The notes below the pieces were generated by a model, which was given only the letters and a program-made list of their open reading frames with translations, was not told where the DNA came from and did not search any database. A stretch of DNA of 14,695 bases, taken from contig CAJXJV010000012.1 in NCBI GenBank assembly GCA_913055135.1, positions 1-14,695 of the forward strand, in the 5' to 3' direction. Positions 2,273 to 8,687 of the stretch are shown here, one piece after another (the stretch's first letter is position 1; each line of letters opens with the position of its first letter). This DNA is from an uncultured Desulfurobacterium sp. Its GTDB lineage: Bacteria; Aquificota; Aquificia; Desulfurobacteriales; Desulfurobacteriaceae. The translations under genes were made by a program, and so were the position numbers.

Positions 2273-3040
2273 TTATAACAAGAACAGTTTTAGAAAGAGA
2301 AAACCTATAACAATTCTGTAAATTCCAAACGGAATGAATGTGTGGGTCTTTATAAAGTTTAAAAGCCATTTAACTGAGATGTAGGCAGATATAAGAGCTG
2401 TAACAAAGCCAATAACTAAGACAATACCACCTTCTGGGGTAAATTCTTTAAAGTTCTTAACCATTTCAAAACCTGTTGCAGCAAACATTGTTGGAATGGC
2501 TAAGAGGAAGGAGAATTCTGTTGCAGCTACTCTTTTCATTCCAAGGAGAAGACCACCTATGATGGTGGCTCCGGAACGGGATGTTCCCGGAACCATTGCA
2601 AGGGATTGGAAAATTCCAATCATTGCAGCCTTTAGATAACTTATCTTTTCGGGTTCAGAGATGTGATGTTCTTTCTCTTTATATAGGAGCTCGATTGCAA
2701 TGAAAACCATTCCCCAGAAAATGAGAGCAACGCTAACGACAAAGGGATTAAACAGCTTTTCAACGTAGTGATGTAACGCAAGTCCTATTATCCCCGTGGG
2801 AATGAAAGCCACGATTAACTTTTTCCACAGTTCGAGGTTATGTGTGAGCTTTTCTCTGTAGATGGAGACCACTGCTAAGATAGCTCCAAGCTGAATAGCA
2901 ATTTCAAAAGTTTTTTCAAAGGAGTTTTGTTTCAATCCTAAAAGGTAAGAGACTAAAATCATGTGTCCCGTTGAAGAGATGGGAAGGAATTCGGTAACTC
3001 CTTCAACTATCCCCAGTATGATGGAATCCAGTATGTTCAT
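2273..3040 (-). CDS. uppP: Undecaprenyl-diphosphatase UppP/BacA
   Basis: This integral membrane phosphatase converts undecaprenyl diphosphate to undecaprenyl phosphate, recycling the lipid carrier for peptidoglycan and surface polysaccharide; the family is linked to bacitracin resistance. The 255-residue protein is mostly hydrophobic helices. It carries both signature motifs: EGVTEFLPISSTGH at residues 13-26 (E13, E17, S23 and H26 match the catalytic positions known from the E. coli enzyme) and PGTSRSGAT at 151-159, with the conserved Arg at 155. Its start overlaps the thiL stop by four bases (ATGA), so it is probably translated by coupling. Length is slightly short for the family but all core motifs are present. 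Confidence 0.96.
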   Translation of the reverse strand: MNILDSIILGIVEGVTEFLPISSTGHMILVSYLLGLKQNSFEKTFEIAIQLGAILAVVSIYREKLTHNLELWKKLIVAFIPTGIIGLALHHYVEKLFNPFVVSVALIFWGMVFIAIELLYKEKEHHISEPEKISYLKAAMIGIFQSLAMVPGTSRSGATIIGGLLLGMKRVAATEFSFLLAIPTMFAATGFEMVKNFKEFTPEGGIVLVIGFVTALISAYISVKWLLNFIKTHTFIPFGIYRIVIGFLFLKLFLL

Positions 3041-3990
3041 TCTGTTCTCCTTAGATGGTCAAATCCGATTTTCCGAACCTTTTTTCCATCGACGAAAACG
3101 CCGCTTCCTTCAGAGACAACTCCTATGACCTTAAATCCAGTCTTTTCTACACTATCAAGCAGATTTTCAGGAAAGGTAATTATGAGTTCGTAATCCTCTC
3201 CACCAAACAGGGCATATTGAAGAGCCTTTTCCCGGCTACCTGCGTAGGAGATAAGCTTTTCGGAAATAGGGATTCTATCACTGAAAATCTCTATTTTCAC
3301 CCTTGAGCTCTCAGAAATCGTATAGAGGTTAAATATGAGTCCATCGCTAACATCTGTTCCACACTGAACGCCAAGGCTTAAAGCTTCTCTACCTTCTTCT
3401 ACTCTTGCAGATGGATTGAGAAATCTTTCAATCAGGTAATTGTCAATCGGTCTGTTTTCCAGAAGAATCTCAAGTCCAGCCCTGCTATCTCCAAAAGTTC
3501 CTGTTACTGCAACCAGATCCTTAGGTTTTGCTGAAGATCTTAACATGTAGCCTTTGCTCTTTCCTGTAAGTGTTGAATCAAAAAATTCCGTTTCTGAAGC
3601 TACCGTATCTCCCCCAATAATTGATACGTTGTAATCCTTACAAGCATCTGAAAGACCATCATAAAGCGATTCCAATAATCTCTCCTCCGATTGATTGGAT
3701 ACTCCTAAGTTAACTATTGCAAATTCGGGAGCTCCTCCCATAGATGCGATGTCACTCACAGAGATTGATAAAAGCTTCCTTCCTAAGTAATAGTAAAGTT
3801 CCGGGAATTTGTTTATCCACTCTCTTTTGTAATGGGAGTTCTCAACAAGAGCATCCGAAGTAATAATCTGATAAGAGCCGTTTAACTTTACAACAGCAGC
3901 GTCATCACCGATTCCTACTACAACTTTTTCAGAAGGGCAGGAAAGTTTTTTTGTCAACTTGCTTATAAGTTCAAATTCACCTAATTTCAT
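3037..3990 (-). CDS. thiL: Thiamine-monophosphate kinase ThiL
   Basis: ThiL phosphorylates thiamine monophosphate with ATP to give thiamine diphosphate, the last step of coenzyme synthesis, in the cytoplasm. The 317-residue sequence shows the PurM/ThiL-type fold signatures: GIGDDAAVV at 26-34, the VSDIASMGG metal-binding segment at about 78-86, GGDT at 126-129, VTGTFGDSRAGLEIL near 162-176, GTDVSDGL at 211-218 and a later FGGEDYEL. The usual V-H-F after the TSD motif reads N-S-H-Y here, a mild variant. The ATG lies 3 bases after an AAAGG and overlaps the end of the upstream small Cys-rich frame by 14 bases. It overlaps uppP by 4 bases at its 3' end. A YjbQ-family gene, sometimes linked to thiamine phosphate synthesis, lies in the divergent operon. 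Confidence 0.96.
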   Translation of the reverse strand: MKLGEFELISKLTKKLSCPSEKVVVGIGDDAAVVKLNGSYQIITSDALVENSHYKREWINKFPELYYYLGRKLLSISVSDIASMGGAPEFAIVNLGVSNQSEERLLESLYDGLSDACKDYNVSIIGGDTVASETEFFDSTLTGKSKGYMLRSSAKPKDLVAVTGTFGDSRAGLEILLENRPIDNYLIERFLNPSARVEEGREALSLGVQCGTDVSDGLIFNLYTISESSRVKIEIFSDRIPISEKLISYAGSREKALQYALFGGEDYELIITFPENLLDSVEKTGFKVIGVVSEGSGVFVDGKKVRKIGFDHLRRTE

Positions 3991-4361: not shown

Positions 4362-6017
4362 TCACTCCGTTAGAGTATAGTATTTTTTCAGGAACTCGTC
4401 CCATTCCGTATCTGTAAACGGATTGTAGTAACCATTAACAATTTCTCCGTTAAATTCGCAGGTTTGAGGGTAAGCCACATAGTAACATTCATCTATATTG
4501 CTTTCGCTAATTGGGAAGTAGATAGAAATTCCGTTCAGGTTTCCTTTCCTGAACTTGTAGAGACTGTCTATTTTAAGTTTTATGTTTACTGCACTGTCGT
4601 AGGAAAAATTGCTCAAAAAGGAGTAAAGGTCAACGTAGTTTCCACCTTCCCAATCCGGAACTTCCTCAGAGTTTTCTCTTGCACTCTTAAAGTTTTCGTA
4701 ACTGGTACTATCCAGATAGCTGACGAACTGATTGAGATTGTCAACTATGTATTCAATATCGCTACTTTTAAAAAGGGTTAGAGTTAGATCGGAATTATAA
4801 GATTCATACTCTTCTCTGAAGGAATCAACAATCATCTTTCCAAATTCTTCAGGAGAAGCTGAAGGATTTGAGGAGAGCTTTCCAAAAACTCTTTCGTAAT
4901 TCCAGCCGTTTGCCGGTTCTTCTGCTTCCGAAGCAACAAAAAAGTCGGCGTAGTCCTTTATATCGTAGAGTGGTTCAACCATTCCCATCAAACATTCATC
5001 AAAACCGATAAGGTTAATTTCATAGTTGTTATCTTTCAGATAGTTTAAAGCGTTTCTTACTTCAAACATAAAAAGTGTATCACCATCCGTTTCATCAATT
5101 GCTGAAAACCTTGTTTGATAGTTTACAGACCTCCAGCCGTCTCCGTGATCCCAGAAGATTAGAGCTCTCTTAGGAGCCGGATATTTATCCATATATTCTT
5201 TAACAAATTTGACCAGCGTTTCTGGATCTCCCATGTTGGGTTCTTCAACCTCTTCCACTTTTCTTAACTTTCCATTGCCGTCGGTCTCGTATATTTCCCC
5301 TGTTGAATTTCCATAGTAGTCAACAAGGGCAACAACCTTTACCTGAGGTGGGAAGAAAACTTTTTCCATCTCGGAAAGGTCAAAAGAGACGTAAGAGTTT
5401 TCTCTTGTACTGCCAAGAGAATTATCGCCATCCATATAAATAAGAACGAGCCACTGGCGGTAGTTAACAGGAGTACAGGTTGAGTCTTTGCAAAGTTCAA
5501 CAGTCGAGTTTGATGGATAAATTTCTACCTGGTAGGTATTTCCATCTTTGAAAAAATCTATTTCTACTGTATTGCCGGATTTTATGTAATCTTCTATTGA
5601 ATCAGTTAGAGGAGTAGAGATATATACACCGGTAAGGTCAACTACAGCTTCTGTTTCATCTGTATCATTGCCAAAAGCGTGGATAAGCTTTGCAAGGATG
5701 TCTCCAACAGTTTCATTTCCTTCCGCCATCTTAAAAGGAGTTATGATCTCTCCGTTTTCCTTAAGTGTGTAGTCTGCAAGCAGAATGTTATCTACGTAAA
5801 AGTTTAAGGCAGGAAAGGGAGCAGGCGATTCAAGGTAAAAGTTCCCATCCTTGTCCGTCAGACTGCAGGTATCAGAGTTCTTTATACATACTTTTAAACC
5901 CTTTACACTGCTTGCAACAACCTTTCCGCTTATAGTTATATTTTCACTACCTCCGCCTCCACCGCAGGAGAAAAGAAATGAAGACAAAATAGCAACAACA
6001 AGCGAAAGCTTTCTCAA
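4362..6017 (-). CDS. Clostripain-like (C11 family) cysteine peptidase lipoprotein
   Basis: This is a predicted envelope-anchored caspase-fold peptidase of the clostripain C11 family, which usually cleaves after Arg or Lys. The 551-residue protein begins with a lipoprotein signal peptide ending SFLFSC (lipidated Cys18) and a GGGGGS linker. Residues about 25-180 form a beta-rich region that I cannot assign; its start (ISGKVV, then SLTDKDGNFYL) resembles carboxypeptidase-regulatory-like domains. The peptidase domain follows: WLVLIYMDGDNSLG at 189-202, the catalytic His in FWDHGDGW (His291) and the catalytic Cys in LIGFDECLMG (Cys342). The start is TTG at 6017: AGGAGG lies exactly 6 bases upstream and the signal peptide begins there. 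The substrate is unknown. It lies between nrdJ and a small lipoprotein. Confidence 0.85.
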   Translation of the reverse strand: MRKLSLVVAILSSFLFSCGGGGGSENITISGKVVASSVKGLKVCIKNSDTCSLTDKDGNFYLESPAPFPALNFYVDNILLADYTLKENGEIITPFKMAEGNETVGDILAKLIHAFGNDTDETEAVVDLTGVYISTPLTDSIEDYIKSGNTVEIDFFKDGNTYQVEIYPSNSTVELCKDSTCTPVNYRQWLVLIYMDGDNSLGSTRENSYVSFDLSEMEKVFFPPQVKVVALVDYYGNSTGEIYETDGNGKLRKVEEVEEPNMGDPETLVKFVKEYMDKYPAPKRALIFWDHGDGWRSVNYQTRFSAIDETDGDTLFMFEVRNALNYLKDNNYEINLIGFDECLMGMVEPLYDIKDYADFFVASEAEEPANGWNYERVFGKLSSNPSASPEEFGKMIVDSFREEYESYNSDLTLTLFKSSDIEYIVDNLNQFVSYLDSTSYENFKSARENSEEVPDWEGGNYVDLYSFLSNFSYDSAVNIKLKIDSLYKFRKGNLNGISIYFPISESNIDECYYVAYPQTCEFNGEIVNGYYNPFTDTEWDEFLKKYYTLTE

Positions 6018-7749
6018 AGCAAACCTCCTGAATCAAAGTTGACAACTGCACGCTTTTACTTTTTATAAGTTTTTCAATCTCCAGATTTTTAATCCCAAAT
6101 TCTATCACTCCTTCTTTTGAACCGTATCTAAAGACAGTAATTCCTTTTAATTTTAACCGGTAGCCAGGCCAGAAAACTTTCTTAACGTCTTCGACTGTAG
6201 CATTGTACGGTAGGTTTACAGTCTTTGAAACAGAGTTGTCAACGTGCTTCTGGAAAGCTGCCTGCATCTTAACGTGCCACTCCGGAGGTATATCAAGAGC
6301 TGTTATGAAAATCCTTTTTACATCTTCTGGAATTCCATGAATTTTCTGAATACTTCCTGTTTTCAGAATCCTTCTTAGCTGTTCTTCCGAGAGTGTGTTC
6401 TTAGTGTACTTGAGGAAAAATGGATCTATCTGAACGGCTGCTCTGCCCTCTAAAATTCTCTTTACATAGGCTATGGCAAAGAGAGGTTCTATGCCCGGGG
6501 TTGTGCCTGCAATCATGCTTATTGTTCCAGTAGGAGCGATGCTTGTTCTTGTGGCATTTCTGACCTTTTTTCCTTTGTAGATACTCTTTTCTATGTTGGG
6601 AAAACTGCCCTTTTCCTCTGCAAGCTTAACGGAAGTTTCAAAAGCTTTTTTGTTTATAAAGGACATAATTTTTTCTGCAAGTTCTAAAGCTTCATTACTG
6701 TCGTAAGGGATTTTCATGTTTATTAAGAGCTCGGCAAATCCCATTACTCCGAGACCTATTTTTCTGTTACCTTTTGCCATGAGTTCTATCTCTTTCACTG
6801 GATACCTGTTAACATCTATTACATTGTCAAGGAATCTGACGCCAATTTCTACCAGTTCTTCAAGTTTTTTCCAGTCTATTTGTCCATTCTTTACCACTTT
6901 TGCAAGGTTTATTGAACCCAAGTTACACTCCTCGTAAGGAAGAAGAGGAACTTCTCCACAGGGGTTTGTTGCCTCTATTTTTCCAAGGTCTGGAGTTGGA
7001 TTTTTCCTGTTTATCTCATCTATGTAGAGAATTCCGGGGTCTCCTGAATCCCAGGCAGATTCTGCTATAAGGTCAAACAGATCTCTTGCTTTAACTCTTT
7101 TCCAGATTTCACCGTTTCTTGGGTTTTTAAGCTCTATCGCTCCATTACTTTTTACTTTTTCAAAGAACTCGTCTGTTGCTGCAACAGATATGTTAAAGTT
7201 CTGAAAGCTTTTCTTGTCCCTTTTACAGGTTATAAACTTTTCAACATCAGGGTGGTATATAGAGAGAACCCCCATGTTTGCTCCACGCCTTTTCCCTCCC
7301 TGCTTTATCGATTCTGTTGCACAGTCAAAAACCCTCATGAATGAAACGGGACCAGAGGCTATACCGTTTGTCAATTTGACAATATCTCCCTCTGGTCTCA
7401 GATGAGAAAAGGAAAAACCTGTTCCTCCACCGCTTTTCTGGATTATTGCCATTAACTTGACAGAATTAAAGATTTCCTCAACTGAGTCTTCAACAGGTAG
7501 AACAAAGCAGGCAGCAAGCTGACCGAGCTCCGTTCCGGCATTCATCAACGTTGGAGAATTTGGAAGAAATTCAAGGTTTTTCATTGCAGTGTAGAACTTC
7601 TCCTCCCACTTCTCTGCAAATTGGGGAGGGTGATAGAGGAGCTCTCCCATTGAAACCGCCTTTGCAACCCGCCTGAACATTTCATCGGGGGTTTCCCCTG
7701 GTCTCAGATATCTTGCTTTCAGTATTTCAAGTGCTGTTTCAGAGAGCAT
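5947..7749 (-). CDS. nrdJ: Class II (adenosylcobalamin-dependent) ribonucleoside reductase NrdJ; apparent frameshift near the C-terminus
   Basis: The enzyme reduces ribonucleotides to deoxyribonucleotides, probably using adenosylcobalamin to form the thiyl radical. Visible motifs are NSPTLMNAG at 64-72, the redox Cys81 in LAACFVLP, SGGGTGFSFSHLRP at 106-119, the active-site N-x-C-x-E (N262, C264, E266), the partner Cys275 in EECNLGSINL and PTGTISMIAGTTPGIEP in the C-terminal half. There is no ATP-cone and no nrdB nearby, which supports class II. The ATG is preceded by AAGGAG overlapping the fabD stop. After residue 563 the literal frame runs 71 bases into the peptidase gene and encodes an implausible tail (CCCYFVF...RWRRR). 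One base fewer in the A5 run at 6060-6064 gives VKACSCQL and a stop at 6033: a 571-residue enzyme with a Cys-x-Cys tail. I read 6033-7749 as the real gene. Confidence 0.92.
   Translation of the reverse strand: MLSETALEILKARYLRPGETPDEMFRRVAKAVSMGELLYHPPQFAEKWEEKFYTAMKNLEFLPNSPTLMNAGTELGQLAACFVLPVEDSVEEIFNSVKLMAIIQKSGGGTGFSFSHLRPEGDIVKLTNGIASGPVSFMRVFDCATESIKQGGKRRGANMGVLSIYHPDVEKFITCKRDKKSFQNFNISVAATDEFFEKVKSNGAIELKNPRNGEIWKRVKARDLFDLIAESAWDSGDPGILYIDEINRKNPTPDLGKIEATNPCGEVPLLPYEECNLGSINLAKVVKNGQIDWKKLEELVEIGVRFLDNVIDVNRYPVKEIELMAKGNRKIGLGVMGFAELLINMKIPYDSNEALELAEKIMSFINKKAFETSVKLAEEKGSFPNIEKSIYKGKKVRNATRTSIAPTGTISMIAGTTPGIEPLFAIAYVKRILEGRAAVQIDPFFLKYTKNTLSEEQLRRILKTGSIQKIHGIPEDVKRIFITALDIPPEWHVKMQAAFQKHVDNSVSKTVNLPYNATVEDVKKVFWPGYRLKLKGITVFRYGSKEGVIEFGIKNLEIEKLIKSKSVQLSTLIQEVCFEKAFACCCYFVFISFLLRWRRR
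6024..6029 (-). promoter_or_regulatory. Strong Shine-Dalgarno sequence that fixes a TTG start for the C11 peptidase
   Basis: AGGAGG on the minus strand lies 6 bases upstream of the TTG at 6015-6017. It falls inside the literal nrdJ reading frame, but only 3 bases after the TGA that would end nrdJ if the upstream frameshift were corrected. Confidence 0.75.
6033..6064 (-). other. Candidate frameshift site and displaced Cys-x-Cys tail of nrdJ
   Basis: The minus strand has five consecutive A residues at 6064-6060. In the literal frame the codons read Ile, Lys, Ser and continue for 37 residues. Skipping one A gives Val-Lys-Ala-Cys-Ser-Cys-Gln-Leu and TGA at 6035-6033. A Cys pair at the very C-terminus is the known shuttle that re-reduces the active site in many class I and II reductases. 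Whether this is a real mutation, a base-call error in a homopolymer, or recoding cannot be told from one sequence. Confidence 0.7.
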
Positions 7750-7757
7750 TTCTCTCC

Positions 7758-8687
7758 TTAGATCTGGTTTAAAAGCTTCTCCAGATCTCCTGGCTTTTCA
7801 ACATTTATGACTTTCAGATTTCTATCAATTCTTCTTATGAGTCCTTTCAGAACATTCTTTGGACCAATTTCGTAGAAAGTGTCAATATCCATTTCCTTCA
7901 TCTTTAAAACGTCCTCAACCCATCTAACTGGAGAGAACATCTGTCTGTAAAAGGAGTCCTTTATCTCTTCTGGATTTTTTATGAGCTTAACGTCGGCGTT
8001 GTTGATAATTGGAACTTCAGCCTCTTTGAACGTAATCTCTTCCATCAGGACTTTTAGCTTTTCTGCAGCAGGTTTCATGAGCTCTGAGTGAAAGGGAGCT
8101 GAAACTGCAAGCCTTACAATTCTTTTTGCACCGGCTTCTTTGAGTTTTTCCTCAGCTTCTTCAAGGGCTTTAATCTCCCCGGAAATTACCGTTTGCTCAG
8201 GGCTGTTGTAGTTTGCCACCTGAATAAATCCAGATTCAACAGTTTTTAGAATTTCTTCTATTTTCTCAGAAGGAAGTCCTATTACTGCTGTCATTCCACC
8301 AACACCGGGCGGGACAGCTTCCTGCATAAACTCTCCTCTCTTCCTTACAAGGAGAGCTCCATCGTGAACAGAAAATACCTTAGCTGCACCGGCAGCGGAA
8401 AACTCACCGAGGGAGTGACCTGCAACTACAACCGGTTTTTTGTCAAAGCCAGCTTTCTCAAGGACTTTTAAGACTGCCATGCTGACAGTGAATATTGCTG
8501 GTTGTGCATTGTATGTAAGGGTTAGCTCTTCTTCTGGAGCTTCAAAACAAAGCTTTGCTATGTCAACCTTTGCGCCTTCAGAAGCTTCTTCAAATACCTC
8601 TCTTGCCTCCGGGAAAGCGTCAAAAAGCTCTTTTCCCATTCCACTGTACTGAGAACCCTGACCAGGAAAGATAAATGCAACTGCCAT
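7758..8687 (-). CDS. fabD: Malonyl-CoA:ACP transacylase FabD
   Basis: FabD moves the malonyl group from CoA to acyl carrier protein, supplying the extender unit for fatty-acid synthesis in the cytoplasm. The 309-residue sequence is full length. It shows the oxyanion-hole motif FPGQGSQYSGMGKEL at 7-21, the nucleophile Ser92 in GHSLGE, Arg117, and the catalytic His200 in APFHSELM, all near the positions known in the E. coli enzyme. The ATG at 8687 has AAGGAGG 6 bases upstream. It is the first gene of the leftward train, and a candidate promoter with an extended -10 lies about 65 bases upstream. No other fab gene is present, so it is separated from the usual fatty-acid cluster. Confidence 0.97.
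   Translation of the reverse strand: MAVAFIFPGQGSQYSGMGKELFDAFPEAREVFEEASEGAKVDIAKLCFEAPEEELTLTYNAQPAIFTVSMAVLKVLEKAGFDKKPVVVAGHSLGEFSAAGAAKVFSVHDGALLVRKRGEFMQEAVPPGVGGMTAVIGLPSEKIEEILKTVESGFIQVANYNSPEQTVISGEIKALEEAEEKLKEAGAKRIVRLAVSAPFHSELMKPAAEKLKVLMEEITFKEAEVPIINNADVKLIKNPEEIKDSFYRQMFSPVRWVEDVLKMKEMDIDTFYEIGPKNVLKGLIRRIDRNLKVINVEKPGDLEKLLNQI

Follow-up and report, generated by a model that had tools for sequence, protein, structure and literature searches.

Does the class II ribonucleotide reductase gene (nrdJ) of an uncultured Desulfurobacterium sp. really encode a protein of 600 residues whose end is written in the following gene, or has its reading frame been broken by a single base just before a shorter, family-type tail? 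The gene lies in a window (the whole stretch of DNA analysed here, 14,695 nucleotides) that is the entire contig C12 of G000, a 1.68 Mb genome assembled in 315 contigs and 89.6% complete. We regard it as highly probable that the frame is broken with respect to the family, counting an error in the sequence and a recent mutation together, and we consider a consensus or assembly error somewhat more likely than a real mutation.

The identity of the enzyme is clear from its matches. It scores 697.9 bits against the TIGR02504 model of NrdJ, for which the curated cut-off is 399.95, and it matches the barrel and all-alpha domains of Pfam (PF02867 and PF00317). The nearest solved chains, 1xjk and 1xje, are B12-dependent ribonucleotide reductase entries. 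Judged from its sequence, the enzyme belongs with the compact class II reductases and has nothing unusual about it, and the literal open reading frame (7749-5947) has no inner stop codon in the nrdJ body. The literal protein ends in ...CCCYFVFISFLLRWRRR, a long tail that holds four cysteines but lacks the C-terminal cysteine pair of the family, which is found in the other frame. With one base fewer, the tail reads A-C-S-C-Q-L and is followed by a TGA at 6035-6033. Three bases (6032-6030) then separate this stop codon from an AGGAGG at 6029-6024, and the peptidase gene begins with a TTG at 6017. The features are collected in Table 1.

Table 1. Positions of features at the 3' end of nrdJ and in the adjoining genes of the window
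Feature	Position	Strand	Remark
Gene upstream of nrdJ	7758..8687	minus	presumably fabD
nrdJ, literal frame; class II ribonucleotide reductase, tail out of frame	7749-5947	minus	600 aa
A5 run named in the initial annotation	6060..6064	minus	possible, less economical site of the extra base
A4 run	6054..6057	minus	most economical site of the extra base, as inferred from the P0002 protein
C-S-C codons, family frame	6042..6050	minus	TGC AGT TGT
TGA, nrdJ stop in the family frame	6033..6035	minus	15 bases upstream of the peptidase TTG
AGGAGG, likely ribosome-binding site of the peptidase gene	6024..6029	minus	judged by eye
Overlap of literal nrdJ frame and peptidase gene	5947..6017	minus	71 bases, covering the peptidase signal peptide
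Downstream gene, clostripain-family Peptidase_C11 protein with lipoprotein-like start	4362..6017	minus	PF03415, 188.7 bits

A protein-set search with the window NrdJ was used to score 8000 candidates, of which the best 120 were listed, and the 28 listed proteins of at least 70% identity (P0002-P0029) were compared at their C-termini. A terminal cysteine pair is present in all 28, and the frame of the window gene is broken relative to every one of them. The relatives are 549-576 aa long. The spacing of the pair is C-x-C in 24 and C-x4-C in four (P0021, P0022, P0024 and P0025), so that it varies among close relatives. Among the remaining 92 of the best 120 listed proteins, 89 have a cysteine pair within the last 14 residues, and one of the three that do not is named as partial. 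The closest of the matches listed, P0002 (95% identity, 571 aa, from a cluster with 15 members), ends in IEKLIKSKACSCQF, and nine of its last 10 residues are identical to those of the tail in the other frame of the window. Chance would be a poor explanation for the hidden C-S-C tail, because of this near identity and because the pair recurs in all 28 relatives. The proposal that the long literal tail is a real and functional C-terminus can appeal to its four cysteines; however, none of the 28 relatives has such a tail, and its residues correspond to the ribosome site and signal peptide of the peptidase gene read out of frame. We hold this to be the least credible of the readings considered here.

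The arrangement of the genes points in the same direction. The gene neighbours are common to the window and the 12 other family loci examined, and in all 12 a homologue of the peptidase, with 42-49% identity to that of the window, comes after nrdJ. The nrdJ stop codon lies 8-17 bases upstream of the peptidase start in 12 of 12 loci, a measure that uses starts picked by the author, with a further possible start upstream in four of them; in the window, the family frame gives a spacing of 15 bases. Since both the tails of the relatives and this spacing fit the other frame, the literal tail is best taken as an out-of-frame reading. Much of this had been put forward from the sequence in an initial annotation, which had described nrdJ as frameshifted near its end, with a proper C-x-C tail hidden behind an implausible extension that ran 71 bases into the next gene, had located the TGA at 6033 with a Shine-Dalgarno sequence three bases further on, and had taken the tail chemistry, the gene spacing and the unlikely extension as signs of it. 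These claims were borne out, and the alignment with close relatives brought up neither a long extension nor a tail without the terminal pair, either of which would have spoken against them.

The position of the extra base is a separate matter. C-S-C comes into frame whichever one of the bases 6051 to 6065 is omitted, and the sequence alone therefore does not fix the change to the A5 run at 6060-6064. This run exists as the initial annotation described it, and its choice as the site of the frameshift has given way to a likelier one. Only deletion in the A4 run at 6054-6057 yields I-K-S-K-A-C-S-C-Q, as in P0002, while deletion in the A5 run yields I-K-V-K; a single event in the A4 run would therefore be the most economical placement, as inferred from this comparison. 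An earlier A5 run, at 6070-6074, was also considered and was rejected, as it leads to an immediate stop in the other frame.

Short A runs rightly placed for slippage might also suggest that the base is real and is bypassed, with ribosomal frameshifting or transcriptional slippage yielding some NrdJ with the C-S-C tail. The candidate runs are no longer than A4 and A5, though, and the cysteine-pair tail stands in plain frame at all 12 other family loci, as it does in the 28 relatives. A conserved out-of-frame arrangement of nrdJ, as would be looked for in programmed frameshifting, was found in none of those 12 loci, and recoding as a family trait was rejected on the same grounds. Such a recoding signal at these A runs is not known to us, and we consider recoding here extremely improbable. 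The suggestion in the initial annotation that the enzyme would either lack its shuttle or need recoding is thus not needed, given that the family genes are in frame at 12 of 12 loci and that single-base indels occur elsewhere in G000.

There remain an error in the sequence and a recent mutation. It is quite conceivable, if short of probable, that a real one-base insertion has arisen recently in this strain or population, with loss of the shuttle tail as the first step of gene loss. Such an insertion would be tolerated because the genome has reductases of class I (NrdAB) and class III (NrdD) as well: NrdA and NrdB lie on contig C9 of G000, and NrdD on C124. Of the 22 family genomes, 13 have nrdJ (G000 included), 16 have the NrdB family and all 22 have NrdD, with G000 among both of the latter groups. 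In G002 (L115), G006 (L116) and G011 (L117) fabD is directly followed by the peptidase gene, and nrdJ is cleanly absent from between them. G002 is the closest sister of G000 on the FabD tree (support 98/94), and its lack of nrdJ makes real decay plausible; the other same-genus genome, G001, is also without the gene. Loss of NrdJ is tolerated in this family, as follows from the absence of nrdJ from G002 and other family genomes and the wide distribution of NrdB and NrdD. With nrdJ in 12 family genomes besides G000, it looks as if the gene comes and goes at a single fixed site.

The nrdJ body, on the other hand, carries no further disabling change. Over the first 556 residues the window NrdJ differs from P0002 at 11 positions, and at the 221 columns where the 27 other proteins show no variation it has no altered residue. 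When the differences were polarised by the majority among these 27 proteins, about five derived changes fell on the window side and two on the P0002 side, too few for a conclusion. The further disabling changes and lost constraint expected of a pseudogene were therefore not found in the nrdJ body, a result that a very recent pseudogene could also give, and the mutation, if real, must be recent.

On L256 (G000 contig C124) the class III reductase NrdD is apparently split into two neighbouring genes on the minus strand, at 844-1386 and 1364-2983, of which the large part has 539 codons and the other 180 codons. The part of 180 codons has two CxxC motifs and what we take, from its motif, to be a glycyl-radical-like end. 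An NrdG-like frame lies at 2926-3597. Many of the 22 genomes of the family show similar NrdD matches in two frames, and in G008 and G013 the two are parted by a stop codon and a new ATG. Some genomes have a single, much longer frame of 926-1378 codons, perhaps with inteins.

Single-base breaks in other genes of G000 bear on the alternative that the extra base is a consensus or assembly error in an ordinary nrdJ, which we judge slightly more probable than its negation. Breaks were surveyed in 44 of the 315 contigs of G000 (553,260 bases, the window included, two contigs partial) against the single-contig genome G002 of the same genus, using matches of at least 60% identity. About nine matching residues were required on each side of a break, by which a break in the last codons, such as that of nrdJ, is missed, and the rates are lower bounds. 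Single-base breaks were found in 6 of 448 genes of G000 and, in the reverse direction, in 1 of 453 genes, a difference that is not significant at 0.05 (Fisher two-sided p = 0.068). A first, smaller survey had given 1/125 and 1/127. The keeping or dropping of rows was the author's judgement: of seven genes flagged forward, L148 was dropped (a short match upstream of the start) and six were kept, and of six flagged in reverse, one was kept (L139 against L160) and five were dropped, namely L137 and L143 (spurious-looking frames), L141 and L153 (matches that lie ahead of the start codon and contain stops) and L231 (a gene already broken in G000).

All six breaks in G000 are one base short, as judged from the coordinates of the alignments. 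They lie in L229 at ~3845-3890 (ribD), L237 at ~1239-1290 (bioA), L138 at ~15368 (hflX), L231 at ~8325-8367 (a permease), L225 near 3098 and L226 near 2681. RibD, BioA and HflX score above their NCBIfam cut-offs, whereas the match of the permease to MacB falls below it; of the remaining two genes, one encodes a multihaem cytochrome-like protein (a weak match) and the other a protein that matched no family. A free-living cell is unlikely to have both ribD and bioA broken, and for this reason some of the breaks would be consensus errors; the six together are likely a sign of such errors. That single-base breaks fall in genes which a free-living cell should need also counts against a real mutation in nrdJ. 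The nrdJ break differs from the other six in that one base has been gained and not lost, which weakens its link to the error spectrum of the assembly and favours the mutation. The A4 run is also short for a homopolymer error, and this counts against an error.

What the enzyme would lose with its tail can be proposed by analogy. According to PMC5704485, class I reductases and the monomeric enzymes of class II bear two cysteines on their flexible C-terminal tail; thioredoxin or glutaredoxin reduces this pair, which in turn brings the active site back to its reduced state. These class I enzymes and the monomeric Lactobacillus leichmannii class II enzyme belong to other classes or subclasses than the window family, and the role of the tail would carry over from them by analogy. 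By this comparison, the C-S-C pair of a family-type NrdJ would act as an electron shuttle, taking electrons from an outside reductant and handing them to the active-site disulfide.

With the class II enzymes of the T. maritima and S. nassauensis type treated in PMC5704485 the window family shares the catalytic core, but unlike them it has a short cysteine-pair tail and no room for the cysteine-rich domain. A cysteine-rich C-terminal domain of 150-220 aa is reported there in 70% of the NrdJ sequences examined, and the S. nassauensis enzyme, when deprived of it, was active with DTT and inactive with TCEP. On the basis of that result, a tailless NrdJ would probably have no turnover with its natural donor. 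By length alone (549-576 aa in the relatives), a domain of 150-220 aa with six conserved cysteines was not found in the window family, and as the family is too short for such a domain and carries a bare pair, a shuttle mechanism like that of class I is likely for its NrdJ. Were the base both real and fixed, slippage might give a mix of tailed and tailless NrdJ, or the NrdJ might do without its own cysteine shuttle and be reduced directly or by another protein; we think either outcome very improbable.

The window gene resembles the compact class II reductases of Desulfurobacteriaceae and their kin, with which it shares 70-77% identity and an intact NrdJ body. Among these are proteins of Balnearium lithotrophicum (P0015), Thermovibrio guaymasensis (P0020) and Thermovibrio sp. 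(P0028). Unlike the window gene as given, the compact reductases of Desulfurobacteriaceae end in frame with their cysteine pair. Nothing points to a novel mode of decoding nrdJ; the broken frame most likely stems from an error of the assembly or from a mutation that is very recent. If the extra base is an error, nrdJ encodes a NrdJ of the usual kind that ends in a C-S-C tail, and the form of 600 aa is no variant. If the base is real, the gene has been caught at the onset of its loss, in a lineage that has reductases of classes I and III as well and whose sister genome is already without nrdJ.
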